Assembly (NCBI GenBank): GCA_017458065.1 | Contig: JAFTGD010000017.1 | Span: 62,001 to 126,000, forward strand | Direction of reading: 5' to 3' | DNA: 64,000 nt | Source of the DNA: Oscillospiraceae bacterium | GTDB taxonomy: Bacteria; Bacillota; Clostridia; Oscillospirales; Oscillospiraceae | Shown here: one piece after another, positions 10,496 through 53,649 of the stretch | How the letters are laid out: each line of letters starts with the position of its first letter | Numbering within the stretch: position 1 is the stretch's first letter | Made by a program: the position numbers and the translations under genes | The notes under the pieces: model-generated | The model's database searches: none | The model's input: only the letters and a program-made list of their open reading frames with translations | Told to the model about the DNA's origin: nothing

Positions 10496-10580
10496 GCGAG
10501 AGTGCTGGAATAGGTAGACAGGCACGTTTGAGGTGCGTGTGTCAACCGACGTGTGAGTTCAAGTCTCATCTCTCGCACCA
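10496..10580 (+). tRNA. tRNA-Leu (anticodon GAG), with encoded CCA
   Basis: This is an 85-nt class II tRNA. The acceptor stem pairs GCGAGAG (10496-10502) with CTCTCGC (10570-10576), then comes discriminator A and encoded CCA (10578-10580). The anticodon arm is CACGT/GCGTG (10523-10527/10535-10539) around a TTGAGGT loop, placing anticodon GAG at 10530-10532 for Leu CUC/CUU codons. The 3' 25 nt are also the prophage attachment core, and the gene stays intact because the integrated copy keeps the whole sequence. Confidence 0.93.
10556..10580 (+). other. attL core (tRNA-Leu 3' end)
   Basis: The 25 nt starting AGTTCAAG and ending CGCACCA are repeated exactly at 53625-53649. Homology stops on both sides: the preceding base differs (G here, A at attR), and CCA is followed by TAAC here but AAAA at attR. 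The core covers the T-arm and acceptor 3' strand, a standard target for tyrosine integrases. Confidence 0.92.
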
Positions 10581-10727: not shown

Positions 10728-10748
10728 TTACTAACGAAATTACTAACG
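10728..10748. repeat. Integrase arm-type repeats near attL
   Basis: Two copies of TTACTAACG separated by AAA lie about 150 bp inside attL. The same 21-bp block occurs at 53556-53576 near attR. Paired 9-mers placed symmetrically inside both prophage ends are what arm-binding sites of a lambda-type integrase look like. Short inverted repeats also occur between here and attL (CGTCAC/GTGACG; TCACATTGTGA), which could bind Xis- or IHF-like factors. The assignment is inferred. Confidence 0.6.
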
Positions 10749-12745: not shown

Positions 12746-13063
12746 TCAACCTCCGATCAGTTCCGCCAGCTCAATGAGGGCGTCTGCCTGCTCCGTGAGC
12801 TGTTCCTGCTGCTCCGCGATCCGCATCCGCAGCACTTCGATCTCCGACGGTTCCACCGGAACGGGTTCCGGAATGTCCGCCTCGATCTCCGCTCTGCTCC
12901 TGGACACAACATGCCCGTCGCGGTACTTGTAGATGGGAACGCCGTGTTCCTCCGTGATGGGATCCCCGATGGTTTCCTGGACCTGATACCATCCGGTATT
13001 CCCGCTCATGTCATTGGGATTGTAGGCCGTGATCCGGTCAGAGCCGTCTACATAAACAAACAT
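12746..13063 (-). CDS. Phage tail-associated protein (XkdW-like position)
   Basis: The product has 105 residues and starts MFVYVDGSDRITAYNPNDMSG. A proline-rich hinge (PEPVPVEP) leads to a C-terminal helix with heptad character (EVLRMRIAEQQEQLTEQADAL). Short proteins of this layout often sit after fiber or baseplate genes in Bacillota phages. Its ATG shares a base with the stop of the reverse transcriptase gene, and its AAGGAG site is inside that gene's end. Confidence 0.5.
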   Translation of the reverse strand: MFVYVDGSDRITAYNPNDMSGNTGWYQVQETIGDPITEEHGVPIYKYRDGHVVSRSRAEIEADIPEPVPVEPSEIEVLRMRIAEQQEQLTEQADALIELAELIGG

Positions 13064-14214
13064 TAAAATTTCTCCTTTCGGTTGATTTTCGTGCCGTAGC
13101 CGAACAGCTCATGAAAGAGCTTGTCCATGCTGCGCACGGTCTTATGACTGTTGTAGTCCTTCAGGATATACCCGCGATACGAATTGTGCGCACAGGTGAT
13201 CTGCTCCTGCCCGAGAAGCCCCGCGTCAAGGAAGCGCCGGAACTTCTTCAGCTTTCGCCGGTGCCGCACGGTGTTGATCTTGCAGGGCTTGACGATAACC
13301 TTTCCGGTCTCGGTCAGGTAGTACAGTCCCTTCATGTACGGGAAGCCGTGCGACAGCTTCACAACCTGCGTCTTCTTCCGGTTCAGCTTGATTCCCTTCA
13401 TCCTGCACAGCCGGTCGATTTCTTCCAGACAGTGCCACAGATATTCCTTGCTCTCATGGATGAGATAGCAATCATCCATGTAGCAGCCGTATTCCTTCAC
13501 GCGCAGGACCTCTTTGATATAGTGATCGATGCTGCTGCGGTAGGAGACGGCGAGGATCTGCGATACCTGGCTCCCGATTCCTAAAGACTTCTCTCCAAAC
13601 GGTTCGATGAAATACCGGCAGAGCGCGAAGATTCTCTTATCCTCGAAAGCCCTGTACAGGATATCGTAGACAGGCCCGTGCATGATGTTGTCGAAGTAAC
13701 CGCTGAAATCCATCAGCAGCACATACCCGGCGTTGCTGCCGGTTCTCCTGTAATACTGGTGAAGATGCTGCTTCAGCCGGTCTCTGGCAAAGGAAATGCC
13801 CTTGCCTTCCAGACTCGCGCCGTTATCGTATATCAGGCTCCTGCTGAGGACCGGGACAAGGGCGTTGTCGCACAGAGACCGCTGCGCGACACGTTCCTTG
13901 AAGTGAACGGACTTGATGTGCCGTTTCTTTCCGCGCTCTACAAGGTCGAATTCAATAAAGCCCATCGTCACGTCCTGCCCAGCCAGAAGCATCTGACAGA
14001 GCTGCACGACGTTCCGAAGCCAGCTCATGAAATACCGCTGCACCGATGCCTTCCATCGTATGGATTTCCCGGACAGTCTCGCCGCCCGGAAGAGCGCGTT
14101 GCAGGTACAGAGGTTCTCGTAGTTGTCATACTGCGCTATGGCAGCGCGCCGCTTTTCCTCGCGTCTCCGCTTTCGCCGTTCATAGCGCCGTTGGTGTCTT
14201 TCTGCGCTGGTCAT
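13063..14214 (-). CDS. Reverse transcriptase of a diversity-generating retroelement
   Basis: This 383-residue RNA-directed DNA polymerase copies the TR transcript into mutagenised cDNA. It has a basic N-terminus, motif A with D169 and D175 (LLMDFSGYFDN), a DGR-type motif 4 (GIGSQVSQILA, residues 212-222, with SQ where group II intron RTs have SP) and the YMDD active site at 245-248. There is no maturase or endonuclease domain, as expected for DGRs. The adjacent TR, Avd-like gene and VR-bearing target confirm the assignment. The ATG at 14214 has only a weak ribosome binding site. The stop overlaps the next late gene by one base. Confidence 0.95.
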   Translation of the reverse strand: MTSAERHQRRYERRKRRREEKRRAAIAQYDNYENLCTCNALFRAARLSGKSIRWKASVQRYFMSWLRNVVQLCQMLLAGQDVTMGFIEFDLVERGKKRHIKSVHFKERVAQRSLCDNALVPVLSRSLIYDNGASLEGKGISFARDRLKQHLHQYYRRTGSNAGYVLLMDFSGYFDNIMHGPVYDILYRAFEDKRIFALCRYFIEPFGEKSLGIGSQVSQILAVSYRSSIDHYIKEVLRVKEYGCYMDDCYLIHESKEYLWHCLEEIDRLCRMKGIKLNRKKTQVVKLSHGFPYMKGLYYLTETGKVIVKPCKINTVRHRRKLKKFRRFLDAGLLGQEQITCAHNSYRGYILKDYNSHKTVRSMDKLFHELFGYGTKINRKEKF

Positions 14215-14273
14215 ATAAAAATTTGGTACAGAGTACGGGACTTATTATAGAGTGACGTTCTACCCGCTTAGCA

Positions 14274-14345
14274 TCAGAGCATGAAAACAGGCTGTTCACG
14301 GACCTGTCCATGCAAGCAGCGTCCGCCCCTTGCATCACCGTACAT
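14274..14345 (-). CDS. Candidate 23-residue ORF between TR and RT
   Basis: An ATG at 14345 follows a strong AAAGGAGGG site with about 6-nt spacing. The frame runs 24 codons to TGA, starting MYGDARGGRCLHG. It lies in the DGR RNA region between the template repeat and the reverse transcriptase, about 60 nt before the RT start, which itself lacks a good ribosome binding site. It could be a leader peptide for RT translation, or the sequence could matter only as RNA. Confidence 0.35.
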   Translation of the reverse strand: MYGDARGGRCLHGQVREQPVFML

Positions 14346-14415
14346 ATTTACCCTCCTTTTTCTCAAAAGGTTCAGGGAAGGTTACCGGCTCCTTCCATAA
14401 TGAGGCACGGATTTC

Positions 14416-14430
14416 AGCCCGCGCAGGGCT
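14416..14430. other. Short hairpin downstream of TR
   Basis: The arms AGCCC and GGGCT enclose a 5-nt loop. It ends exactly 22 nt from the end of the TR, the same distance as the larger hairpin beyond VR. It is short enough to be chance. Confidence 0.3.
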
Positions 14431-14452
14431 TACTTTGACTGGCCGATACTGT

Positions 14453-14574
14453 GGAATCAGAGCGGCACGCGGATGTTGGTGTTGGCCGCGTTGTTGTTGT
14501 TGGCATTGCCGTTGTTGTTGACATTGCAGAAGTTCGTGGCCGAGTAGGCGGTCTCCAACCACCAGTTGCTACGG
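14453..14574 (-). repeat. DGR template repeat (TR)
   Basis: These 122 bp align without gaps to VR at 15074-15195 (constant offset 621). On the - strand it is rich in AAC/AAT codons, 13 in the VR reading frame. All 15 differences from VR are at TR adenines (+ strand T at 14457, 14474, 14483, 14491, 14492, 14497, 14501, 14506, 14513, 14515, 14524, 14525, 14533, 14534 and 14566). It lies between avd and RT, the usual place. An in-frame TGA sits where VR has a Cys codon near the 3' end, so the TR itself is not a coding segment. Confidence 0.96.
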
Positions 14575-14598
14575 TTTACAGCCGGTAACCTGCTGGGA

Positions 14599-15012
14599 TT
14601 ATTTTGTTCTGATGATCTTCGCGTTCTTCTTCAGGCCTCGCAGGAGTTTTAGCTCCTGTATCAGCAGAAGGCCGAACTGCTCTACGCGGTCAGGAGTAAC
14701 GCTGTCTATCGCCCATACACAGTCCTGCATCTGCGTGAAGAGAGTTTCGCCCGCTTCGATTGCCCTTTGCAAATACTCTTTTCGGACTTTGAGATTGTAT
14801 TCATCGACCGGGAAACGGGTCTCCGCTTTGGTCAGATTGTTTCGCATCTCGTGCCAGCTGTTCAGCATCGGCACCACGTCCGTGTAGAGTGTCCGTTTTG
14901 GGAAAATATTCGGGTTACCTGTCACGCGCCGCAGCTCCATGTATAGCGCCGTCGCCACGTCGTAGTATTCCTTCCCCGTGGCATTCCGGTTTCTTGTATA
15001 GACATTACTCAT
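14599..15012 (-). CDS. avd: Avd-like DGR accessory protein
   Basis: This 137-residue, mostly helical protein lies between target gene and TR. Its size, helical content, basic C-terminus (LLRGLKKNAKIIRTK) and location match the accessory variability determinant. In the Bordetella phage DGR, Avd forms a pentamer of four-helix bundles that binds RT and RNA and is needed for cDNA synthesis. The start at 15012 has AAGGAG about 10 nt upstream. That site falls between the VR hairpin and this ATG. Confidence 0.85.
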   Translation of the reverse strand: MSNVYTRNRNATGKEYYDVATALYMELRRVTGNPNIFPKRTLYTDVVPMLNSWHEMRNNLTKAETRFPVDEYNLKVRKEYLQRAIEAGETLFTQMQDCVWAIDSVTPDRVEQFGLLLIQELKLLRGLKKNAKIIRTK

Positions 15013-15032
15013 AATCGGTAGGCTCCTTCAAT

Positions 15033-15051
15033 GCGCCCCATAAAGGGGCGC
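15033..15051. promoter_or_regulatory. DGR hairpin/cruciform element beyond VR
   Basis: The perfect 7-bp GC stem GCGCCCC / GGGGCGC with a 5-nt loop ends 22 nt from the VR boundary, between target stop and avd start. In characterised DGRs such a DNA hairpin shortly 3' of VR promotes target recognition during retrohoming. No U-tract follows on the - strand, arguing against a terminator. Confidence 0.7.
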
Positions 15052-15062
15052 TGTATAGGGTG

Positions 15063-15947
15063 TCAGGTGAGGAGGAAGCAGAGCGGCACGCGGAAGTTGG
15101 TGTAGGCCGCGGAGTTGGTGTAGGCACTGCCGTAGCTGTTGACAAGGCAGAAGGACGTGGCCGAGTAGGCGGTCTCCAACCACCAGGTGCTACGGCCGCC
15201 GCCGTCGCCTGCGCCTTTGATGATATGACGCCCGGATCCGGCGAAGATCGGCCACTGGTTATACAGCATGTCCGCGATGGCGTTTGACTTCGGGCTGCGG
15301 ATTTTGGAGCCGTAAACCTCCATCTCTTCCGGAAGGAACAGACGGCCTCTGTCGCTCCATGCGCCCGTTGTCGGTGCTGCCGCGCCCGCTGCCATCGTTT
15401 CGAGATAGGCACGCATGCCCTTGTTGTTGGGGCCTTTGAAGATGTAAGCGCCCAGCGGGGTGTTTTCCAGCAGCTTGATAATGCCGTTCTCCGGGTCGTT
15501 CAGCGTGGCGTAGAGCGCCGAGCCGAGCCACGGATTAACCGCCGCCGGGTCGAACCATGTGCTGTTCTCGCTGCGAAACTGGAGCGTGGGCGGCAGGCAA
15601 TCGCGGGAGCACATCAGAATGTGCTGCGCGGTCAGTTCCGTGTCTCCGAAACGGAGATAGGGATTGATCGCCGCCACTTCCATCTTCACGTTGGCATTAA
15701 GGGTCTTGTCCGTGTCTGTCGCCGCGTCGTGGAAGGTGCCGCTGACAGTGATGGGGTAATAATCCCCGATGCGGATTTTTGAGAAATCCCCTGCGGCAAT
15801 CGCCGTGTGCAGCGCCGCCGCAGACTCAAACTCCTCGCTGAAATCGTTGCCGCCGTACCCTTCGACCGCCGGGACCGCGTTCGCCGCCCGCAGGTCATAA
15901 GTGGTGCCGTCAACTTCCAGCTGATCCAGATAAGGTCTGTTTTCCAT
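15063..15947 (-). CDS. DGR target protein with C-type-lectin-like variable C-terminus
   Basis: The 294-residue product starts MENRPYLDQLEVDGTTYDL, a phage fiber or baseplate-type N-terminus. The C-terminal half resembles the DUF6273-type C-type-lectin fold, ending RVPLCFLLT. VR covers about residues 251-291. Asn codons of the TR appear here as T, S, L, N, S, Y, S, Y, T, N, S, Y and N, and one Ile as Phe, while the scaffold residues (WWLETAYSAT, RVPL) are unchanged. Because NNY codons cannot become stops, any adenine change stays open. It probably displays the variable surface on the virion for receptor binding. The BppU-like gene lies 17 bp upstream. Confidence 0.92.
   Translation of the reverse strand: MENRPYLDQLEVDGTTYDLRAANAVPAVEGYGGNDFSEEFESAAALHTAIAAGDFSKIRIGDYYPITVSGTFHDAATDTDKTLNANVKMEVAAINPYLRFGDTELTAQHILMCSRDCLPPTLQFRSENSTWFDPAAVNPWLGSALYATLNDPENGIIKLLENTPLGAYIFKGPNNKGMRAYLETMAAGAAAPTTGAWSDRGRLFLPEEMEVYGSKIRSPKSNAIADMLYNQWPIFAGSGRHIIKGAGDGGGRSTWWLETAYSATSFCLVNSYGSAYTNSAAYTNFRVPLCFLLT
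15074..15195 (-). repeat. DGR variable repeat (VR)
   Basis: The recipient copy of the TR lies at the 3' end of the target gene, ending about 11 bp before its stop. It is 122 bp with 107 identities to the TR. Every mismatch replaces a TR adenine (with C, T or G on the coding strand). The invariant GC-rich 3' segment (CGCGTGCCGCTCTG on the - strand) is the likely initiation-of-mutagenic-homing site. The changes show that this prophage lineage has homed at least once. Confidence 0.96.
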
Positions 15948-15964
15948 TGTGTTTACTCCTTTTC

Positions 15965-16321
15965 TCAGACGTCCGCGTTGATCTCATCCACGACAATCAG
16001 AAACTCCGGGGAATACAATGCCGCTGTATCCTTTGAGAGTTTGATGTTGCACTTCACGGCCCCTGGATTGTCGGTCATTGTCTCCGGGATCGTGTAGGAA
16101 ACCTGATTGCCGCTGATCGTGCAGTCGTCTGTCATATATGTACCGTCCGGGAGTGCCGCGAAGATCTCAGCCGCGCTTCCGTCTTCAATCTCATAGGGAA
16201 TGCCGCTCCCTATCAGCGTGATGCAGAATCCGCGTGCCGTGTCCCCAGCCCGGACGTGAACATATTCCATTGTGCTTTGCTGGTCCATGTCCAGCGTAAA
16301 CTGTTTGATTGCCGGTGTCAT
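15965..16321 (-). CDS. BppU-like baseplate/receptor-binding N-domain protein
   Basis: The product is about 118 residues and starts MTPAIKQFTLDMDQQST. The central part (GDTARGFCITLIGSGIPYEI... EIFAALPDGTYMTD... VSYTIPETMTDNPGAVKCNIKL) matches the N-terminal beta-domain of phage baseplate upper proteins (BppU_N). The ATG at 16321 has AAGGG upstream; the longer frame to 16348 has no clear site. It lies directly upstream of the DGR target, so the pair may form the receptor-binding device. It lacks the long C-terminal part of typical BppU proteins. Confidence 0.65.
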   Translation of the reverse strand: MTPAIKQFTLDMDQQSTMEYVHVRAGDTARGFCITLIGSGIPYEIEDGSAAEIFAALPDGTYMTDDCTISGNQVSYTIPETMTDNPGAVKCNIKLSKDTAALYSPEFLIVVDEINADV

Positions 16322-16346
16322 GAATATCACCCTTTCACACTCTACC

Positions 16347-16388
16347 ATGCGGGGGAGGAAAGCTTAATCCCCCCTCCCGCATATTTTT
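16347..16388 (+). terminator. Terminator-like hairpin in antisense orientation
   Basis: ATGCGGG...CCCGCAT arms (16347-16358 and 16370-16382, imperfect in the middle) are followed by seven T on the + strand. All genes here are on the - strand, where no U-tract follows. It lies between the giant gene and the BppU-like gene. It may block antisense transcription or act as an RNA processing or stability element. Confidence 0.4.
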
Positions 16389-16389
16389 T

Positions 16390-19300
16390 TCAGTTCTTGC
16401 TGTTCCAGTAATCGAAGGTCCTGGTCCAGCCCTGCGCGGCCCATACAGCCGCCGCCTGGTCATAGCTCATTTCCCTTCTCGCGATGGCCTCCCGCAGCGC
16501 GTAGCCCAGCTCCGCCTGTTTGAGGCTGCTGTTGTGGTCCGTGTCTGCCGTGCTCAGGATCTCCACATACCGCTCAAGGCTCATGCCGGATCCTTTCAGC
16601 TGGTTCTCCCAGACCGCGTAACTGGCCTCTTTCTTTTCCTTGCCGTAGAGCGGAGCCATCTTCTTGAAGTCGTCGTAGCTCCCGACCGTTCCGACCGCCG
16701 TCCCCTGAACCGGAGTCTGCGCCGCGACCTGGAACGTCTGCTCGATCTGTTTCACCGTTGTCTGCTCCTGCGTGTTTTCCGCAGCCTTTGAGGTTCCGGA
16801 AGATTTCTCTCCCCATTCCTCAAAGCTCTTCTTCCACGTCGGGCCGACCGCCGCCCAAATCGCCGCCGCCTGTTCCTGGTTGTACGTTCCGGCCTGCACC
16901 TGCTCCGTGAGCCATGCGCCGATTTCTTCCCGCTTGAGGCTTCCGTTGCCGTCGCTGTCCGCCGCTTTGAGAAGCTCCTGGTACTGGTTCTTTGTGATCC
17001 CGAGCGGTTTGAGCTGGTCCTTCCAAACGTTCAGCTTGCTCTGACTGAGCGCGCCGCCGTCGTAAGTCCGGATCTTCCACTCGTCCCGGCGTCCGTTCAC
17101 GACTGTGTTCCAGATCGCCGTCGCGTCCCTGGTGAGGTTCGCGACCGCCAGCCCGGAGAGCTGAGAGAGCGCCTGCAGTGTCTTATAGATCTTGCCCCAC
17201 TCCGTCATTTTGCCGTAATAGGTGACGTTCGTCGCCTTTTCCAGTTCTCCGTTGTTGAGCTTGATCGTCTCCTCCCAGATCTTATAGACGTTCACGATGT
17301 TGTTGAACGCCGCGACCGACATGTTGCTGCTGCTGTATCCCTGCAGCGTGGAGATGAAGTCCTTCACAAACGGCAGTTTCCCAAGGACCGTCAGATCCTG
17401 CGACAGGTTGCCCGTGATGAACTTCCCGTCCTTGCCGAGGAACGCTTCCAGCCACTTGTCCAGAAATGCTTCGTCGTCATCGTCCCTTGCCGCGTCCGCG
17501 ATGGATTCAACGACTGCCGAATACACCGCGCTGCACAGATAAACCGCGAACGCCCGACCGAGTGTCTTTCCGTTTCGCTGCCATGCTCCGGCCTTGCCGT
17601 GCTCCCGCACGTCTCTGCTGTAGGCGTTCGCCGCGTCCAGCAGGATGTTGTAGGAGAGCGTCGGTTCCGCCATGAACGCTGAGATGGACTTCGACCACAG
17701 CGTTTTACTGCGCATGGTCTCTGACCGCGTGAGCGTCGAGTCCATAACCTGAGAGCTGTACACAACCTCCCGGAAGAGGTCCGCCGCCGCTTCGCACAGT
17801 GCGTCTCCGCTGAGACTCCTGTTCTCCGCTCTGGCCTGCCGTTTGCAGGCGGTCCACAGGCGGCTCCATGTCATCTGGTCCCCCAGCTCCGCCGCTTTCA
17901 TGCTGGCCTCCGCGATCTTATCTTTGATCGTGTCGTCATGCTGGATCTGACCGCGCATCCCGCGTGAGACGTCCGTGTCATAGTATCCGAGCGCTTTCCA
18001 GACCGCCGTCCCGGAATACTTCATTGCTTCCTGGTACGCCGCCCTGCTTGGCACAGTACCGACGAGATGCTGCGGCTTGAGCACCGTCATCGCCCTGAGA
18101 TAGGATGTCGGCTGCAGCAGGGCCACCCGGAGGTTTGCCCCGACCGCCGCGATTTTGTAATTGCTCATGAGCTTTGTCGCAAGACTCGTTCCGCGGTCTC
18201 CGCTCTCCGTTACGCCGTTGATGTCTTTCATCAGCGTGCGGAAGTAGTGCTGAGCGTCTTTCCCGTAAGCCTGCTCCATCGCCCCTTGTAAGGTCCTGGT
18301 GTCATACTCTCCGTTTTCAAGATCGATGCGTTCCTTATAGTTGAACCACTTGATCGCGTCCAGTACCGGCAGGCCCATTCCGTTGAGCTTTGCCATGTCG
18401 GACATGTGGTCTGCATAGGTGTCAAAGATGTTTCCGACCACCAGCGCGTTACTCGCTTTCGGGTTCAGCGCCTTACTGCTGCTGAGGTTCAGGAGCCGGA
18501 ACATGCTTGCGTTCTCCGGCATGTCCGTGTCGCTCATCGGCCTGTCGTTGCTGTCCGTCTTAATCGGATAGTAGTTCTCCCCTTCGGTGTAGAACTTGTA
18601 CCCGAACCGCCGCATGGAGATTTCGTTCCCCCAATCCGCGCCCCGGACCGCCATGTACTGCTGCAGCGATTTTGCGACCGTTCTTTGCCGCTCTGTCAGT
18701 TCTCCCGTGATCTTCTGAATATCACTGAACGTCAGATGATAGTGCGTCGTGTCGTGGATCTTGCCGACCTTCTGTTCAATGTCTCCGATCCGGATGCCGC
18801 CCCGCTCGATATGCTGTCTCGCCTGGTCGCGGTTCAGCAGCATACTCAGTTCCATGATCTGCGCCGTCGTCATCTGAATCTTCTTCCCGTCGGACAGCAT
18901 GATCTCATGGATATGGGACTTCCAGTCGTTCACTTCTCTGTCGGTATAGAGTCCCTCCGTGAACTTGATGATCTCCTGCGCGTTGATCGCCAGCTTCTCC
19001 CAGCCTCTCGCGAAGCCGTCAAAAATGCTGCGCCCGCCCGCGCCGAAGCGCCGCATGACGTAATAAGGCGTCCCGTTCTCCCACGCGGCAAACCGGCTGA
19101 CCGCCGTGCCGGAGAGTTTTCCTGCTTTCCCCAGCGACTGCATATAATCCACGTCGCCGCTTGCGGCTTCCCGGACGCTCTCATACCTCGCGTTTGCCAT
19201 GAAGCTGTTCATGTTCCGGATCGCCGCCGTCAGGTTGCTGAGGAAATTGCTGAGGTCCTTGAGTTCCGCGCCGCTCATCCGGTTGATGGTATAGGTTTCC

Positions 19301-22300
19301 CCGTTCGCCATCGCCCGTGTGATCAGCTCCGCCGTCCTCCTGAGGAAGTCCAGCGAGTCCTGCGACACGTCGATGTATCCGCCCAGATCCTCCTGCACTT
19401 CTCCGCTGCCGTCAAGATAGCTCTGCTGCCCGCTGAGAAGCTGCTGCAGTCTTTGCAGTCTTGCCCCGAACGTCTGGTCGTTTCTGGTTTCCTCGCCGCC
19501 GTTCAGCAGGCGCTTTGATGAAAAGTCGATTTCGCTCAGAAACTCCGCCAGCGGTCCCTTGAGCACTTCCGGAACGTGCGTCTTGTTGTCGTTCTTCATC
19601 AGCATCTCATAGAGCTTCCCGGCCTTTTCCGTGACCCGCGCCCGGTACTTGGTGATGGACGCGCTCTCTTCCCGGCGCTCTTTGGCCCGCTTCTGCATGT
19701 CCGCATAGTGTTCCTTGAGTGCCGCGACCTTCCGGTTGGTCCGTTCTTTCTCCTGTGCCTTGACCTGCGCCGCTCTCGCTCTGCCCTCTTCCCGGACTTG
19801 CGCAAGACGCGCCTCGGACCGCTCCCGCAGCGCCTCGTACTTGGCCTGCTGTCTGTCCAGCTTCGCCGCCAGCGCCCCGACTTCCTTGCTGAGCTTCGCC
19901 GCCTCCTTCTCCGTGAGCTTCTTTTCCTTGGTGAGCGCTTTGATCCGCTCGTTCAGCTCTGCGTTCCGGGAAGCCAGCTTCTCCTCTTTCGTCATCGGTG
20001 CCAGCCGCAGCTCGTCCCACCACGACATGCGCGAGATTTCCGCCGCGACTGCCTGGATGCTCTCGCCCATGTACTTCTCATGCGGATTGACCGTCTCCGG
20101 CTCTGCCGCGCTGAAATAGTTCGACAGGATCCCCAGCATCTCCCCCTGGTTGGTGAGCTCCGGGAAGTAATGGTTCCCGTAACTCTCCCGCAGCTCCTCA
20201 TAGAAGCTGTCCACCGGGATGTGTTCCGCCGTGACCGATTTGCTGTCTCTCGCCGCCACCGTGAACCGTCCGAAGTTTTTCTTCCGGAACTCGTTCAGGT
20301 TCTCGTATCCGGGAATGTCCCCGGCCTCCGTGGACGCGATGACGAACTTCTTTCCGGAGATCCGTCCCTTGATTTCCTTGAATACCTCGTTCTCGGGGTT
20401 CTCGATGGTCTCCTGCGCGTTGTTGACGATCTTCTCCGCCAGATCCCTTGTCATGTTGTTCAGGACCGTGACGGATGGATCCTTCTCCTGCAGCACATAA
20501 TTCCAGATGTGAAGAATGTCGTTTGTGACATCATCCACGCTGAGCGTGCTGCTGTTGTCCCGGATGAGCCTCTTCGCCGTCTTCCTCGCGTCATCCCGCC
20601 GCGCTTCCGGACTCTTTCCGATCCGGAGTCTCGCCTGGATCTCCGCCAGAGACCGCTTCTGCGCTTTGGTGAAGGTAAAGATGTCCCGCGCCGCCTCGTC
20701 CAGAATCGCGTTCTCGGCCTGCATTCTGCTGTATGCAAGCTCCCGCTCTTCCGCCTCGGCAGCGGTGTCGTCGTCCGTGACGTCCCACGCCATGAACTGC
20801 GCCTGCCCCTTGTAAAGGACCGCTTCTTTCATCTCGTCCGTGATGTCCACGTTCCAGACGTCGACAGACCCGCCGTCTTCATTGGGAATGGAAAGCTCCG
20901 TCTCTCCGACCTTGCCGCCCCACTGCTTGACATACTTCCGCATGAACTTCGGGATGTTCTGATTGTACTCGATCCGGTATGCTTCTTTATTTTTCTCGTA
21001 CTTCTTTTGGTCCGGTTCCTGCCACCGGTCCGCCTGCATCTCTGCTGTCGTCCAGCCGATAGCGTCATATCCGCCCTCCGCCGCCAGCCGCAGCAGGTGC
21101 TTCATGACATACTCGTGATAAGTGTCCGCAGACCCGGCAAACGGCACGTCCGGCGCTCTGTTTTCGTTCTTTCTGGACTCCGATCTGTAGATCCGTTCCG
21201 CGTCGGAAGCCGCCCTTCCGATCCTCTGCGCCTCCCGGAAGACTTCCTTTTCCTCGTCGAACATCAGGTCCATTGCCGTGTTGACCGCGTTCCAGGAATC
21301 GTCGTCGGATATGAGCCACCACATCGCGCCGTTCACATCCGCAATCGGGGAAACTTCCTTCCCGATCATCCAGTTGTAAACGCTTTCCGGCGTGTGCTTG
21401 AAGTCGGGGTTCTGCTCGCTCAGCCCGTCGTCTATGGTCTTTGCCAGCGCCCGGAACCTTTCCTCGTTCTTCCGGAGTTCTTCGTTCGCCGCGTTGCGCC
21501 TTTCCTCCATGCTTTGAAGTGTGTGCAGCGCGTCCGGAGAATCTTTGTACCCGAGCCTTGTGCCGTCGTTGTGAAGATCGCTCTGGATCTCTTCGATAAA
21601 CAGTACGCGGTATCCGCGCTGGTCCTCCGCGTCCTGCACACGCGCATGAGCGATCACGCCGGGAGCGTCCTGCTTCCAGTGTGTGCTGCCCATGTCGGCC
21701 TCATAATCCAGTCCGGGAAGCTTAAACATGATCTCGCGATAATTGCTTCCTTTGTAAAGGTTATAATCGGACCAGTGCGTTTCTCCGGGATCCATGCTGC
21801 CTTCAAGGAGAACAGCCGTAAACAGGGGAGTCGTCCCCTCTCCTGACCAGTGAGGAGCCTCGAAGATGTACTCGTCTCCGTCTCTCCACCAGCTCGATCT
21901 CGCGTTCGCTCCGGCCTTATGCCTCGCCAGCTCGTCAGCGTAATACTGCATCTCTTCAAAATCAGAGAAGCTTTCCTCGCTGCCGTCTTCAAACACGGCC
22001 TCGTAGCTGTCCGGCCTCGTCTCGCCGCTCCGGAGCACCTTTGTGTCGATCTGGACCTGGTTCTCCGCCATGAACGCCTGCAGCTCTTCTTTGGTGACGG
22101 ACTTCTTTCCTTCCAGCCACGGCTGAATCCCGGACCAGCGGATCTCCTCCGCCTTGACGCCACGGCCCCGCAGCCACGGAATGACTGCGTTCCCTGCCAT
22201 CTTTGCAGGCATTGGTCTGCCCTTCTCATTACTCCACTCATCCACGGTCTTCTGCATCTGACTGTAAAACTCAGGAGCCCATTCGTTGTGTCCGAGATCC

Positions 22301-25300
22301 CAGCGCATATAAAACGCACTGAGTCCCTGGCTCCGGACCTCGCCGGTCTGGTAATAATACTTGATGTCGTTAATTACGCGGTCCGGCCTGATGGTCCCCT
22401 CATATTCAAGGTTCGCCACCGGATACCCGTCCGGGCCGTCTATATCGACAATGAAGTAATCCTCGTCCATGCTTTCGCGGACAAATGTGCGAATCATCCG
22501 GTACTGTTCCGCTGTCGGCTCGTGAGCGGCGCTGACATCAAAACCCGGAGCCTCCGGCATCATGCGGATGTTGCCCTGGTTTACAAACCGGACCAGAGCC
22601 GCCGTACCTTCGCTGTTGGCGAAAACGCGGCTGATCGCCCTGTGGTCCTCCGCCCGGTAACCGGCGTGACGCCCTTTTTCACCGGAGAAATTCAGCATCT
22701 TCCCGTTCGGGAGAAGATACCCGGCCTCCCGGAGATTCGACGTGTACCCAAACTCTTTGATTGCAAGCTTCCGGAAGTATTCTTCCTCACTCAGCCCGGA
22801 CGCCTCAATGGCCTGCCGCTCTTCATCGTTCGTGCGTAGAACTCTCTTCTCTTCGGCAAGCTCATTCACCACGCGGTACTTGTTCCGCAGCTCCTCGCGT
22901 TCCCGGTACAGCGCGCCGTAACCGCTCTCATCTTCCCACTTCTTGTAGGCGTCGATGGACTTCTGATCGTTCACGTCGAACTTTTTGACCCGCGCGTCGA
23001 GTTCGCCTTTCATCGCGTCGAGCTGTTTCTGGTCCTGATTGATCTTGTATTGCAGCTCGATGCCAAGAGAGACAAGCTGATTCTCGCTGTAATCAGAGAG
23101 GGATTCCCGGTAATCGTCCTCGCCGTCCCAGCGCATGAACTGCGCCCTGCCGCTTACTTCTTCTTCGTTTTCGCCAGCTTCTTCGCTTCCTCGATATCCT
23201 TCCTGTGCGCCATCCTGCGCGATTCGATTTCTGACTTGCCCAGCAGGGATATCCCTAATGAACCTGCCTTGTCTGTCTGTGAGCGACGCGACATCGTATG
23301 CAACTCCTTCCTCTCTCAAAACCGTGTCGATTCCTGTTCCGTGCTTGTCATATATGGTCTGCACCAGCTCCGGACGGATTGCGAGATGCTTTCCGTTCCG
23401 CCCGATTGCCAGCGTTGTGCAGGCGACCACGCGCCCGCCTTTGCTCTCGATGAACTTCCGCAGGTCGTTCAGCGTGCCTCCGAAAGTCAGAACGTCGTCC
23501 ACAAGGATATAGTCCTGCCCCTCAATCACGTCGCCGTCAAACGCCGCGTGCTCGATAATCCGGATCACCGCGTTGGAGTTGGTGTGTCCCGCCTTGCCGA
23601 TCTGAATAATGCTGTCGTCGATGTCGAGTCCGTACTTCGCCAGCTCTGCGGCATAAGCGTAAGGTATCTTGTTCTTCCCTTCCGTATCAGAGGAACGCAC
23701 CGGCACAAGGACCGCGCCCCTGTGTTCGTTGGCAAACGCCCGCAGCTTCTCCGGTTTCACGCTCCGCGTCACAAGCTGTCTCGCCGCCTCGGCGTCCCCG
23801 TTCTTGGCCTGCTCGTGCAGCGTCCTGTCGCCCCGATACATCCCTGTCAGATTCGTATTGTACATCACCGGCGGGAAGTTCTCGCCCCAGTGGTGTTCCT
23901 CCATGCTCGACCGGATTGCCTCGGAGTCATCTCCGCCCCAGCGCATGAACTGAGCGGTCTGTGTGCCGCTGTACTTCTCCCGCAGGCGCTCCGTTGCGGA
24001 CTTCGTTCCGAATTTTTCCTTGACGGCATCCCGATTCCCACGGCTGAGAGGCTGGACATCCCGGATTGTGACGTCTGCCGTGTTCTCTGCGCCGTTGAAA
24101 TCCTGCCCGATAAGGCGCAGGCTGTCCATCGCGGACTTGCTGTATTTATTGCTGCTGTCAAACAGGAGGACCGGGACGTTCCGGATCCCGTGCTGCCGCA
24201 GCGCGACCATTCTGTGCCGCCCCTCGTGACCTTCGACCTTGCCGGTCTGCGTGTCAATCCGGAGTTGAATCGGCTGCGCTTTGGAATAGTCCAGCGTCTT
24301 TTCTACCGTGAGCCCCTCCGCCTGCTTCGCGATAACCTGCCTGGAAGCGATCCCGCTCGTCGTCATACGCAGGAAATCCAGCGGCGACATATAGGCGATG
24401 TACGCCTGTGCATAATCCGGATTGCTGGAAGCATAGTCTTTCAGCCAGCGATCCAGCGTGTCCTCGCTGATCAAAGCTCTGTCGTTATATCCGACATAAT
24501 CCGGTTCTCCGTCCCACTGCATGAACTGCGTGTTTCCGCGCTCCTGTTTCGGAGCTCTGTCGTCATACTCGATCTTTACGCCTGCGTCTTCCAGCGCCCG
24601 CAGCAGGGCGGGAGGCACGACGTTACTCGGTACTCCGATATCCGTCCCGTCCAGAAGATCCTTATAGTGCTGTGCGACCTCGGCTTCCGGGACCTTCCGG
24701 ACCGGTTTCAGCCACCTGCTGAGATAGACCTGCCGCTCCGTTCCCTTCGCCTTGACCAGTTTTCCTGCGACCGGCCCGCTCTTCCACGGATGCAGGCCCA
24801 CCGCGTCCTTTGCGTACTCTGCCCGGTATCCGCTGTTCAGTTCGCTCTCCGGGATAATGCACTCATAAGTGACCAGATTCGGCCTGCTGTATGCTCCGGT
24901 AAACTGATCGTTCAGCATCAGGTTAGAGGAGTGCTGATACGGATTGTATGCCGCCTTGACCGTGCTGCCGTCATCCTTTTTCAGGTTGAAGTAGCCTTTC
25001 CCGGTCTCCGGATCAATGATGATGTTTTTCAGATTTCCTTCGGACTCCACCCAGCGCCCCGGTTCAATGCCGTTGCGCATCCGGTACTTGCCGTCCGCGC
25101 CCTTCTCCTTGGATGCCATCGGGGGATACAGCTTCCCGTCGATTTCCAGAAAAGACTTATAGGTATGGATAACCTTCCCCTCGTCTTCCTGCTCTTTCAG
25201 AAACTTCGCCGTCTCTTCGTCCTGCACATAGCGCTGATACTGGACCTTCGTCTGCTCCCTGGTATCGAGACCGGCTGTCCGTTCTTCCTGCGCCCGTTCG

Positions 25301-28300
25301 GATTCCGCCACAGCAGGAGCGTTGTTCTCCGTCTCGGCCTGCTGCACCGTGTACGCCGCCTGCATATTCTCCGACGCCTCGGCAAAAGCCCGCGTCCAGA
25401 TCTCGCGCATCTGGTCCAGCGCGCCCTCTGCGGCCCGGACTTCGCGGTGAAGCTCAAAGCCCTGGACGTTCTGCATCTCTTCAAACGCCGTCCGGATGTC
25501 CTCAATGAGGTTTTTCAGGAAATCCCAGATCCTTTCCGCGAGACTCTTGTGCTCGTTCACGATCCGCTGCACGGCCTCCGGATCCATGAGGATTGTCTGG
25601 CAGGCGTTCGCCACCATCTCGTCCGTGATCTGGTCCGGCGTCAGCTTTCCTTCGGTCCGGGACCGTCTTCCGAAGATACTTTCATACTCGGCAGGGTTCT
25701 TGAGCATTTCACTCAGAACGACTTCCTTGAGTTCCGCGTACTCCGCAGGCGCGTACTCCTGCAGCCAGTGCGTCAGCTCATGGGACAGCGCCCCGATGGC
25801 GATGTTCTGCCCGTCCACGCTTGCGTTGATGTTCAGCCAGAGGACGCCGCCCTGCTCCCGCAGGTACTCGCCGCCGATTCCTTCTCCGAAATCTGCGATA
25901 TGGATTTCCAGACCGGACGCTCTCGCAATGGCCTCTGCGATGTTTGCCACGGCCCGCTGCGTCCTGCTGAGCTTGCTGCGGTCCACAGCCTGATAAGCAG
26001 CGCCGCCGACATTTCCGGCTTCCGCCTCAAAGGTGACGCTCCCCTGCTTTTTCTTGCCCTTCGGCGCTTTGGCCCGTTCCGCGTCTCTCGCCTGCTCGAT
26101 GTCTTCAATGGCCTGCTTCGTGCCGTCCACGGCGTCGGTCAGCTGCTCCACGCGGTCCACGACGGCCTGATATGCCGCCTCGTCCTCGCTCCATGCGCCG
26201 GACTCCTGCATCGCGGTCATCTCCGCGACCGCCGCGTCCAGATCCGCCTGAGCGGTTTTCAGATAGTCCCGCGCCTCGTTCAGCGCACGGCTCATCTCCC
26301 GGACCGTGACCGGCTCCGCAAGGATGTTCTGCGCCTTTGCTTTCAGGCGCTTGAACTCCTCGGATCGGCTCTGTGCCGCCTGCTGCCGCTCCGCCGCGAT
26401 CTGCTGTCCGATCTCCTGCGCGACCTGGATCTGAGCGTCCGTGAGGTATGCCACGCTGTCATACCGTCCGCCGCTCTTCGCCTCCTGCGCGATCTCCGTC
26501 AGGTCCGCCCCGTGGGCGGCATAAAGCTCAGCCGCGCGCTGCATCGCTTTCGCATAGCGCCCGACATCCTGCGTTGACTCATATACCTCAGCCGCTTTCC
26601 CGGCGTTCTTTCCGAAGAAGTCCAGACTCGCCTCGACCTCGGTCTTGCCCTTCTCGCTGCTGATGTCCACGGACCCGCCCTGTTTGAGCGCGCCCAGCTT
26701 CCACGCGTCGGAGAACTGCTTCTCGCTGATGTCCTTCCCGAACGCTGCCCGGTTCCTGGCCTCTTCCAGTGACAGACCGTTTTTACCATAACTGTACGCT
26801 TCCCTGGTTCCGAAGAGGAAGGGCTGCGATCCGGTGCTTCCTGCGTTGTAGCTTCCGATCAGCGCGTCGACCTCGGCCTCATCCAGCCCGTCATAATTCC
26901 GCCGGAGATATTGCTCCGCCGTCTCGCCGATGGCTTTTGATACCGCGTCCTCGTTGGTCTTGCTCTTGGTCATGTTCTCCATGACCTGCTGCGCTGTCGG
27001 TCTGCCATCAAAGCGTTTCTGTTCCGCAGCTGTAAGCTCCTCGCCGGACATCTGCTTTGCGATCAGACGCGCAAACTCTGTCGCGTTCCCCTTGTCGTAA
27101 CCGTTTTCCAGAAGTCCCTGCTCCGCCGTGTCTGTCAGCTGCAGCGTCGCGTTCTGTCTCGCGCTCTCGCCGTTGACGATGTTGGTCGCCCCGCCAAGAC
27201 CACCGACCGCAGCGCCAATCAGAACGTCATAGAGAACCTCAGACGGTTTAATCTGCCGGTACAGCTCTCCCAGACTCTCATCTTTGTAAATGATTTCCGC
27301 GACAGGAGCCAGAAGGTCCGCGATCCCTTCCTCAAGACCTTCGCCTGCGGCACTCGCCAGCCAGCGCAGAGCAGACCTGCCGAAATCGCTTTTGGAGAGT
27401 TTCCGGATGACTTCCTCAACAGCCTCATCGGCGACACCGGCCCCATAGATTCTTGCCACGCCGTCGAAGAGTTTTTCCGTCAGGACCTCGATCCCGCCGG
27501 ACACCGCGCCGTAAGCGACCTGCTGTCCGAGGGTCGCGCCCTCCTGCCTCGCGGTCTGCGCCCCGGTTCCGGCGGAGCGGATGAACATCGGAGCCAGAGA
27601 CCCAACACCGGTAATTGTGCCGAGACCGGCATCGTAACCCATCTGAATGAGATTCTGCGCAATGTCCACGCCTGCTTGCCCGAGCTTGCTCAGCCCGGAC
27701 TTTGCGCTCTCAAGATCCATCCGCGCGCTCTCGCCCAGCCGGTCCGCAGCCGCCTCAAGACGCTGCCCTTCCTCCCGGACGCTGCTCCAATCGCTGTTCT
27801 GCTGGATTGTTCCGGCGGTCATTTCATCCGTCGCGTACCCGGCATAAGGATCCAGGTTGCCGCCCAGACGTTCTGCCAAAGCCGCAGCGGCCTCGATCCC
27901 GGTCCCGGCGAAATTTTCCACACCAGCCCCGTAATCTTTCGTGGAGCCGCTGAAAATCTGCCGCACCCGGTCCGCGTCGTTGTAACTGCGAACGCCGTTC
28001 CCGGCTTCCAGATCTCCCTGTTCCAGCTGCCGCAGGATCTCGGACCTTCTCGCCGCAATCTGATTCGCCTGCTGAGGATCCGTGACCCATCCGCTGTTCG
28101 CGTCGATGTCGTTGAGTTCCTGAATCAGCGCGTCCCGGCCTTTCCAATCCGCCGTGCTTACTTCCGGTTTCTTGAACAGATTCTTGATTCGCTGCCACAG
28201 TGACGGTTTCTCTTCCGCCGCCGTCTCCTGCGCCAGCTCTTCCAGTCCGCCGCCCTGCGCCTGCTGCTCCGCTTTCCAGTTGCTCGTCTTCGCAGCCAGG

Positions 28301-52013: not shown

Positions 52014-52418
52014 ATGACTATGGATGAACAGATATTCTCCGCTGGATCCTCGGTCCGGTATGTCCGCTTTGGATATACGTTTGAATCAGAGAAAGCGGTC
52101 CGTTTCTTCGACACTGTTTTGAAGCAGCATCTTCAAGCGGGAGAACCGATCCAGGACTTTGACGTTTTCAAGATCGTGGTTCAGTCCGCTCACAAGTTCC
52201 GGTCCTTTGCGTACCGGAAGGGATTTGCCACCTGCGACGGAGGTTATGTCACAGGGGAACGTGCTTTGGAGGCAGCGAAGACAATCAACGACTCTTTGGA
52301 TCATTACTACGACAGTCTGCCGGAGTTCAGGCGCAGCTATGCCATGCAGGAGTATAGAGACGCCCTGATTCCAGCCGTAGAGAAAGAGTACCATATTGTC
52401 TTCCTGGAAAGGTCATGA
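52014..52418 (+). CDS. Lysogeny-region protein of unknown function
   Basis: The product has 134 residues, mixed alpha/beta and charged. No motif is recognised. It lies between the membrane protein and integrase, overlapping the latter by 4 nt (ATGA), so it is cotranscribed and may affect integration, excision or immunity. A GGGAG site precedes the ATG; another ATG is two codons downstream. Confidence 0.5.
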   Translation: MTMDEQIFSAGSSVRYVRFGYTFESEKAVRFFDTVLKQHLQAGEPIQDFDVFKIVVQSAHKFRSFAYRKGFATCDGGYVTGERALEAAKTINDSLDHYYDSLPEFRRSYAMQEYRDALIPAVEKEYHIVFLERS

Positions 52419-53596
52419 AGTGTAAATACTGTGCTCATGAGATCCCGGATGAATCTATCTTCTGTCTGTTCTGCGGGGAGCGTGTCGCCCGGAAGAAGAG
52501 AGGCAAAAAGCAGGAGATTAAGGTCCCGGAGCCCCGGCAGCTTCCGTCCGGAGCCTGGACGATCCAGCTGAGGAAAGAGGGGCAGAGCATTACGGAAAAC
52601 ACGCGGGACGCCTGCCTTGCCAGAGCCCGTGCGGTCCGCGCCGGTTTCCTGCAAAAAGAAAAAGCGCCGCCGGAAGTTCTCCTGACAGACGCCATCACAA
52701 AATATATTGACAGCAGAAAAGGAACCGTCTCGCCAGCTACCATTGCCACCTACAAGAAGAAGCAGTCCCTCTATTTCAAGGACCTCATGCAGACGAACAT
52801 CTTCGACATCAGCGAGGAACAGATCCAGCAGGAAGTCACAAAGATGATGACCGTCGGAGGATCCAAAGGGGAACCGCTCTCTCCGAAGACCGTGCGCGAC
52901 GTGATCATGTTCATGAACTCCTCGATGCAGTATTGCGGGAAGCAGCTTGACATGCAGAAGATCAGTCTGCCGCAGGTGCAGTCTTCACTGTACACGGTCC
53001 TCACGCCGAAAGAGATCATTACGCTTCTGAAAGCGCTGCCCGGGAATCCATGTGAGATCCAGATCCTTCTCGCGCTCTGGCTGGGACTCCGCCGCTCCGA
53101 GATTATGGCCCTGGCGAAAGAGGACTTCGATCAGGCGCACAAGACCGTCTCCATCACAAAGGCCCTCGTCCGGGACGCGGACGGCGAATGGGTGATCAAA
53201 GGGACGAAGACTTCCAAATCCGCCCGGATGATTTCCTGCCCGGACTACATCCTGAAACTCGTTGAGAAATGCGACGCCGGGACGCTCTACACCAACGACG
53301 CGAATTATATCCTAAAATGCCTGCAGCGGCTTTGCCGGGAAAACAGTCTCCCGCAGGTCCGGCTCCACGATCTCCGGCACATCAATGCTTCCATCGGTCT
53401 GATGCTTGGAATCTCCGATAAGTACATGATGGAGCGCGGAGGATGGAGCGCAAAGGACACGATGGTTTATCGCTACCAGCACACCTATTCCGAGGAAAAA
53501 GCAGCCGCCGACGCCACCATGAACACCTATTTTGAGAATCTCCTAAACGGTAAAATTACTAACGAAATTACTAACGAAAAACAAGAGGCCCCGTAA
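52415..53596 (+). CDS. int: Tyrosine integrase with N-terminal zinc ribbon
   Basis: The product has 393 residues. A zinc ribbon (C3, C6, C17, C20) leads to an arm-binding/core-binding region (about 85-185) and a catalytic domain with R226 (LGLRRSE), H318 and R321 (HDLRH), W344 (GGW) and nucleophile Y354 (YRYQH). It catalyses site-specific integration at the tRNA-Leu core. Its last codons (KITNEITNE) lie in the arm-type repeat, and attR begins 29 bp after its stop. No separate Xis gene was recognised. Confidence 0.93.
   Translation: MKCKYCAHEIPDESIFCLFCGERVARKKRGKKQEIKVPEPRQLPSGAWTIQLRKEGQSITENTRDACLARARAVRAGFLQKEKAPPEVLLTDAITKYIDSRKGTVSPATIATYKKKQSLYFKDLMQTNIFDISEEQIQQEVTKMMTVGGSKGEPLSPKTVRDVIMFMNSSMQYCGKQLDMQKISLPQVQSSLYTVLTPKEIITLLKALPGNPCEIQILLALWLGLRRSEIMALAKEDFDQAHKTVSITKALVRDADGEWVIKGTKTSKSARMISCPDYILKLVEKCDAGTLYTNDANYILKCLQRLCRENSLPQVRLHDLRHINASIGLMLGISDKYMMERGGWSAKDTMVYRYQHTYSEEKAAADATMNTYFENLLNGKITNEITNEKQEAP
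53556..53576. repeat. Integrase arm-type repeats near attR
   Basis: The second copy of the TTACTAACG-AAA-TTACTAACG block, identical over 21 bp to 10728-10748. It lies inside the int coding end, about 50 bp from attR. Confidence 0.6.
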
Positions 53597-53624: not shown

Positions 53625-53649
53625 AGTTCAAGTCTCATCTCTCGCACCA
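53625..53649 (+). other. attR core
   Basis: An exact 25-bp duplicate of the tRNA-Leu 3' end at 10556-10580. The 5' part of the tRNA is missing, so this is the truncated copy that marks the right prophage end. Confidence 0.92.

Follow-up and report, generated by a model that had tools for sequence, protein, structure and literature searches.

The stretch analysed here (the window) comprises 64,000 nt of contig JAFTGD010000017.1 from an Oscillospiraceae bacterium (assembly GCA_017458065.1, positions 62,001-126,000), and all positions given below are those of the window. It includes a 43-kb prophage integrated at a tRNA-Leu gene, and within this prophage lies a diversity-generating retroelement (DGR). 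The whole is best explained as a phage DGR that is very probably in working order, in which a template repeat (TR) enclosed by an RNA helix is copied into the variable repeat (VR) of a presumed tail target gene. On the minus strand, the order is target gene with the VR at its 3' end, avd-like gene, TR, spacer and reverse transcriptase (RT) gene, and this is also the order in the DGR of Bordetella phage BPP-1 (AY029185). The features of the element are:

13063..14214, minus strand: DGR reverse transcriptase, 383 aa, with YMDD and IGSQVSQ (RVT_1, E 3e-13; phrog_1423 RT, E 6e-63)
14206..14447, minus strand: RT-2 RNA (RF03077, cmscan), the structured spacer between TR and RT and 3' part of the template RNA
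14379..14390, minus strand: TR-enclosing helix, 3' arm (coding sense AGCCGGTAACCT), within the spacer; pairs with the 5' arm
14453..14574, minus strand: TR (repeat search and alignment)
14457 (VR counterpart 15078), minus strand: marker base of the IMH* (IMH, initiation of mutagenic homing), A in the TR and C in the VR in 10/10 loci including the window
14580..14591, minus strand: TR-enclosing helix, 5' arm (coding sense AGGTTACCGGCT), shortly before the TR; pairs with the 3' arm
14599..15012, minus strand: avd-like accessory gene, 137 aa (30% to Roseburia phage Shimadzu orf23, annotated Avd, E 1e-16, a single comparison)
15033..15051, minus strand: GC-rich hairpin after the VR, GCGCCCC-TTTAT-GGGGCGC (10/10 loci including the window, by eye)
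15063..15947, minus strand: 294-aa target gene carrying the VR at its 3' end (orf22 of Shimadzu, 'tail fibre protein', is 30% identical, E 1e-28)
15074..15195, minus strand: VR (repeat search and alignment)

The prophage carries a complete, typical phage DGR with the core defining features, among them a VR that forms the 3' end of the target gene and a TR that adjoins the RT gene. A model that had been given only the letters and their open reading frames (the sequence-only reading) had placed the element in the family first described in BPP-1, and the TR/VR pair, RT motifs and gene layout bear this out. Its feature set did not include the VR hairpin (15033-15051), the RT-2 RNA (14206-14447) or the helix arms (14379-14390 and 14580-14591).

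The TR and VR align without gaps over 122 bp (88% identity by repeat search), at the same coordinates as in the sequence-only reading, and again as it had stated all 15 mismatches fall at template adenines, as in BPP-1. Given 34 A in 122 template bases, the hypergeometric chance of this is 3.0e-10. Thirteen mismatches lie in Asn codons (the earlier list of 13 TR Asn codons that read T, S, L, N, S, Y, S, Y, T, N, S, Y and N in the VR is correct), and the remaining two are ATC>TTC and TGA>TGC. The last of these (14457/15078, alignment column 118) is A in 10/10 TRs and C in 10/10 VRs of the loci compared below. Because it is fixed, it is the difference between IMH* and IMH, a GC-rich pair of elements with a fixed difference being one of the marks of a DGR, and hence 14 of the window mismatches, not 15, are mutagenic. 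The view that all 15 are products of mutagenesis was rejected on this ground; the changes that the sequence-only reading took to have accumulated in the VR are retained for those 14, with 14457/15078 set apart. When the TR was used to query the genome (3.6 Mb in 83 contigs, E 0.001), there were two matches, the TR itself and one VR.

The RT contains the YxDD box and the [ILV]GxxxSQ form of motif 4 that characterize DGR RTs. It is 27% identical to BPP-1 Brt (E 1e-16), and its YMDD and IGSQVSQ align with the YMDD and IGSLTSQ of Brt, so that both share YMDD and IGxxxSQ; the YMDD box and DGR-type SQ had been picked out in the sequence-only reading. Its best sequence match among solved structures is 8ub7, 'Reverse transcriptase' (E 5e-13), which we take to be the BPP-1 enzyme. 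The RT of a retron, a group II intron or a defence system with a repeat nearby by chance might be mistaken for such an element, and the RT does have weak NCBIfam matches to group II, retron St85 and Drt models, while in PADLOC it matches the general RT model at 1e-17 and, more weakly, a large number of defence RT (DRT) models. However, the NCBIfam matches are far under their cut-offs, and adenine-specific TR/VR divergence recurs in nine relatives examined and in 92/113 loci of the RT-2 class among the matches listed (see below). A retron, group II or DRT identity was therefore rejected on the TR/VR data and on the best NCBIfam score of 47.3 of 300 bits, and we give this alternative practically no credence.

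The position and size of the avd-like gene and its match to the Shimadzu Avd lend some plausibility to the label that the sequence-only reading had given it, as does one (1/20) of the aligned members of its family that matches PF05635 (1.4e-4), which we take to represent the Avd-like fold. The avd-like protein gave nothing above cut-off in Pfam or NCBIfam, and for it and the target protein together the searches of Pfam, NCBIfam, PADLOC and solved structures were uninformative. The target is presumed to be a receptor-binding tail protein, its 30% match to the Shimadzu tail fibre including the C-terminus. DUF6273 was detected in 10/17 aligned members of the target family (E 0.01), the window protein itself scoring 0.013. 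A profile search of solved structures gave nothing for the target, and no similarity to BPP-1 Mtd was detectable. The sequence-only reading had called it C-type-lectin-like, a label that is putative here. Targets with a C-type-lectin fold are typical of DGRs and not strictly required.

The DGR of Roseburia phage Shimadzu (LR596903) resembles that in the window in its RT (47.8% over 91%), its avd and tail fibre target (30% each), its RT-2 spacer and a 12-bp enclosing helix, and differs in a longer target (431 aa) with a different N-terminal part. A difference of this kind was also seen in a relative described below, L034 (598-1902), where the C-terminal part of the target is common with that at 15063-15947 and the N-terminal part is different (434 aa vs 294 aa). 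An insertion of about 54 aa is common to the targets of L031, L032, L034, L038 and L120, and the window target is without it.

RT searches found seven loci in IMG/VR with RTs 70-96% identical to the window RT, and three contigs from metagenome-assembled genomes (MAGs) with RTs 85-93% identical, one of them partial. The IMG/VR relatives (L028-L034) and the MAG locus L045 (RT 91%) have the same RNA and, where the VR sequence is included, the same hairpin as the window, and they carry other letters in the VR at TR adenines; by eye, the lysis genes and the N-terminal parts of the targets vary among them. Ten loci, including the window, carry both repeats and could be compared over the same 122 columns. 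Together they have 167 TR/VR mismatches, of which 164 are at TR adenines. The mismatches at non-adenine positions in relatives, which the sequence-only reading had said would count against it, come to three, one in L030 (column 22) and two at the 5' edge in L032 (columns 4 and 5); its own criterion thus speaks for it. L046 and L047, which are near relatives by RT, are in MAGs labelled Candidatus Treponema caballi and Prevotella and are perhaps mis-binned phage contigs or point to unexpected hosts.

Pairs of loci with identical TRs were compared over columns 1-117, which contain 34 template adenines and 83 other sites. The VRs of L028 and L031 differ at 16/34 template adenines and 0/83 other sites, with RT genes 11.1% apart, and those of L045 and L030 at 18/34 and 1/83, with RTs 3.4% apart; overall, VR differences in identical-TR pairs are found at 47-53% of template adenines. 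For L031 and L046, whose TRs differ at one base, the VRs differ at 23/34 template adenines and 1/83 other sites, where the RTs are 21.7% apart and the 199 nt of the target gene before the VR are 21.6% apart. Hence, at its framework sites the VR agrees with the TR of the same phage rather than with the remainder of the target gene, indicating that the VR has been repeatedly overwritten from the TR and that retrohoming has recurred in this phage lineage. Activity thereby gains more support than the sequence-only reading could give it. The DGR could nonetheless be a decayed one, in which the VR was diversified in the past and the copy in this prophage no longer retrohomes. A single VR state was seen for this genome, and activity of this copy is deduced from its sequence. 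Such decay appears improbable, as the RT, avd-like and target genes are open, the RT-2 RNA is intact, the TR/VR pair is without a non-adenine mismatch and, among relatives, the TR has changed at 1/122 bases where the RT gene differs by 22% (L028/L046 and L031/L046).

The spacer matches the Rfam family RT-2 (RF03077) at 122.1 bits (gathering threshold 40, E 3.8e-29), with all 222 model positions matched by the window RNA. RT-2 was the sole match when 12800-16400 was searched against Rfam up to E 1, RF03022 (Phage_DGR) falling short of that threshold. The spacer of BPP-1, which is also structured, matches RF03022, named Bacteriophage DGR RNA, whereas the name and description of RF03077 in Rfam do not mention DGRs; unlike the RNA as read here, the RF03077 model begins after the TR and leaves the 3' arm of the helix unpaired. 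The RT-n RNAs were reportedly defined by Weinberg in 2017. In the literature searched, RF03077 was found in one paper, as an entry in a table in the accessible part of the Rfam 15 paper (PMC11701678). An Rfam search of further RT loci (L056 excluded) found RT-2 in 14/19, many of them near relatives, and in 2/20 others. Two loci with TR/VR pairs (L016 and L025) match RT-18, and one in which a TR was found (L017) matches RT-9. RT-18 and RT-9 RNAs are thus also present in TR/VR loci (L016, L017, L025 and L187-L190), and other RT-n families, too, may represent templates of DGRs. Whole genomes seldom carry RT-2, which was detected in 7/391 of the class (5 above cut-off) and 2/398 of the phylum (1 above cut-off), the window's genome included in both.

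For a test of RT-2 independent of RTs and TRs, viral contigs were scanned for an 18-base core motif of RT-2, which gave a sample of at least 120 loci with 105 distinct cores; at least four of the contigs were already among the earlier loci. Counts for this set are among the matches listed. An RT was found by tblastn with two RT queries in 108/109 listed loci with at least 600 nt downstream, and a motif pattern (xxDD and GxxxSQ in one open reading frame) was found in 84/101 with 1300 nt downstream and not in 17. Scoring that does not favour adenine detected a TR/VR pair in 92/113 listed loci with at least 450 nt upstream, and 1416/1561 mismatches are at A, though A makes up 3052/11653 of TR bases. 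The distance from the end of the TR to the core motif is 91-207 nt. With a TR/VR pair in 92/113 and an RT in 108/109, the RT-2 RNA in these loci forms the 3' portion of the template RNA of a DGR. In 5/92 listed loci, one TR has a candidate second VR (L091, L163, L171, L179 and L186). Across the 92, adenines were changed at 47-63% in CAA, AAC, AAT, GAA and TAA and at 7-8% in CAG and GAG, and the products were G (628), T (408) and C (296), figures in which selection and mutation are not separated.

The GC-rich hairpin that follows the VR in all ten loci has the loop TTTAT in seven and TTCAT, TCTAT or CTATGT in one each, and by eye it was not seen after the TR in any of the ten. In BPP-1, efficient retrohoming requires a GC-rich hairpin behind the VR, with a stem of 7-10 bp and a 4-nt GRNA loop, according to the accessible part of Guo 2011 (PMC3240598). 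The 7-bp stem, found in 10/10 loci, fits this rule and the TTTAT loop does not. Throughout the RT-2 class, hairpins were scored where a stem of at least 7 bp with at least 5 G-C lay within 65 nt after the VR, using TR positions from an adenine-favouring scoring (as in the class-wide helix tests below, the 92/113 above being from the neutral scoring). Such a hairpin follows the VR in 64/89 listed loci and the TR, in the same window, in 4/89, and there were 0 at 100-170 nt upstream of the VR, a control stretch scored wherever sequence sufficed. Loops fitting GRNA are found in 16/64, the commonest loop being CTTGT (10). Hence, the stem and its place are conserved, and the loop rule does not appear to be general.

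The TR in the window is flanked by two 12-nt arms, one shortly before it and one within the spacer, which are predicted to pair with probabilities of 0.96-1.00 in the RNA. A helix is present in 8/8 RT-2 loci tested singly. In an alignment of 11 sequences, 6/12 pairs are doubly changed and 97.7% of cells pair, 0/500 shuffles reach the pairing, double-change or covariation values, and controls with slid arms collapse. Across the RT-2 set, the 3' arm was then taken as the 8 nt after a conserved AAGG and compared with each locus's own upstream stretch; 3 of the 92 TR loci are without this anchor and the remainder gave 63 distinct arm sets. Of these, 50/63 pair 8/8, compared to a mean of 5.4 and a maximum of 13 in 2000 when the arms are permuted among loci, and none of 10000 permutations reached the summed pairing score of 486 (maximum 425). 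For each of pairs 3 to 8, five or six standard pair types occur. By locus, the helix is found in 73/92 listed, its median distance from the TR being 12 nt on the upstream and 61 nt on the downstream side, with a median of 200 nt enclosed. These comparisons suggest that the TR sits inside a covarying long-range RNA helix, both strands of which change together between phages.

The arms might instead be an inverted repeat that acts at the level of DNA, or a structure controlling expression of the RT, possibilities that concern the helix alone. DNA inverted repeats would covary too, and the second of the arms precedes the start codon of the RT gene. We consider this unlikely, as a median of 200 nt lies between the arms, whose placement in 73/92 listed loci is tied to the TR, with median gaps of 12 and 61 nt. 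The longest T run near the 3' arm in the window, which follows the arm, is four T, and because there is no longer run the structure does not look like a terminator.

Several observations tell against a working DGR with a helix-enclosed TR. The number of pair types in the 11-sequence alignment was reached by 35/500 shuffles, 13/63 arm sets are not fully paired, a free (unanchored) search gave scores of at least 22 in 44/92 listed RT-2 loci vs 28/454 with swapped arms, only 4/8 further RT-2 loci in the mixed set described next exceed the swapped 95th percentile, and the permutation statistics ignore kinship among loci. The TTTAT loop in the window departs from the GRNA of BPP-1. The avd-like protein has no detectable similarity to BPP-1 Avd, so that this part of the sequence-only reading is only partly upheld. 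Finally, the VR comparisons speak for retrohoming at the level of the lineage and not for activity of this copy today; the earlier claim that the copy is active holds to that extent, its present-day activity being unproven.

Whether the helix extends to other DGRs was considered using a mixed set of 35 loci (8 RT-2 and 27 other DGR, L187 being the same place as L016). In 16/27 non-RT-2 loci, including those of Faecalibacterium phages Toutatis and Brigit and Bacillus phage BalMu-1, the locus's own helix was above the swapped-arm 95th percentile, many with the same geometry. In this search the helix was not above that percentile in BPP-1, ACA1, VP58.5, ZX4290 or 1F273_PE002, and a first free search in BPP-1 did not find it (shuffle p 0.28). 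A set of BPP-1-type loci was assembled (77 of 80; L241, L259 and L273 were dropped as the stretch starts too near the RT). Of the 74 with at least 450 nt upstream, 63 have a TR/VR pair, with 882/994 mismatches at A. Only 14/63 exceeded the swapped 95th percentile in a free search. When the search was anchored on TCC[TC], 28/51 distinct loci pair 11-12 of 12, compared to a permuted mean of 9.3 and a maximum of 17 in 5000, and at least four of those 28 placements (L205, L206, L210 and L250) are 55-60 nt upstream of the TR and chance-like. BPP-1 itself pairs at 10/12 ungapped at -19..-8, which by eye are 6- and 5-bp parts split by a bulge. A TR-enclosing helix in BPP-1-type DGRs is thus supported by these alignments, though more weakly than in the RT-2 set. 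In both Rfam models (RF03077 and RF03022), the strand of the 3' arm is unpaired. We tentatively propose, at slightly less than an even chance, that DGR template RNAs across classes separated in Rfam (RT-2, Phage_DGR and others from Bacillota) share a helix between the end of avd and the spacer that encloses the TR and sets the start and end of copying, with RT-2 as the 3' half and the unpaired Rfam strand as the 3' arm, and that neither the RT-2 assignment nor such evolutionary evidence has yet appeared in print.

The prophage around the DGR is bounded by a 25-bp exact repeat, and its integrase, terminase, portal, and major head and tail proteins were all matched in PHROGs. The features outside the DGR are:

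10496-10580: tRNA-Leu(GAG), holding att copy 1 at its 3' end
10556..10580, plus strand: attachment (att) repeat copy 1, 25-bp exact repeat; forms the 3' end of tRNA-Leu(GAG) and one boundary of the prophage
15965..16348, minus strand: neighbouring 127-aa gene, BppU_N-like domain (PF10651, 22.6 bits, slightly below the Pfam cut-off of 23.1)
52415-53596: integrase gene (phrog_1, E 1e-42)
53625..53649, plus strand: att repeat copy 2, 25-bp exact repeat; other boundary of the prophage, next to the integrase gene

Another short repeat, TTACTAACGAAATTACTAACG, is near both ends of the prophage (10728-10748 and 53556-53576) and is possibly a recombinase binding site. The genes to the left of the prophage are, by eye, what we take to be rpoC and rpoB. 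The DGR is flanked by tail genes and a lysis gene (endolysin, phrog_20388). Between the tail and DGR genes is a single reading frame of 4102 aa (16390-28698, minus strand), which matches phrog_22978 (E 3e-151) and phrog_22413, both families of unknown function.

To our knowledge, the mechanism of DGRs has been worked out in detail in a single phage, BPP-1. There, as the accessible part of PMC12875486 has it, the spacer recruits bRT-Avd and primes synthesis, copying begins in the region of IMH* and is terminated by a motif that the avd RNA carries in its 3' end. By analogy, the avd-TR-spacer transcript in the window would fold with the TR inside a 12-bp helix that joins the end of the avd region to the RT-2 spacer, and the RT and the avd-like protein would bind this folded template RNA. 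The TR would be copied from the IMH* end with errors at adenines, stopping near the upstream helix, and the resulting cDNA would replace the VR in the 3' end of the gene for the tail target, the recipient side being marked by the GC-rich hairpin. The 5' arm is at the place that matches the terminating avd motif of BPP-1, from which we infer that it may stop the polymerase and hold the ends of the template together, the helix thus delimiting the copied segment. Priming, the role of Avd, cDNA transfer, a function in host range and the order of events are carried over from BPP-1 and may apply here; they would join the anatomy, adenine specificity, recurrent replacement of the VR from its own TR and helix covariation observed in the loci compared. 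Neither the helix nor the assignment of RT-2 to DGRs was found in the literature searched, and the BPP-1 RNA structure (Handa 2025, Nature 638:1122) may already show the helix.

The DGR itself is ordinary, a further and well-supported phage example with close relatives, in which identical templates with different VRs show such an element operating in nature. Of more interest is the helix. Its covariation in many phages provides a testable model of how the copied segment may be delimited beyond BPP-1, and it could help to detect DGR templates in sequence data, while the assignment of RT-2 would give that Rfam family a function.

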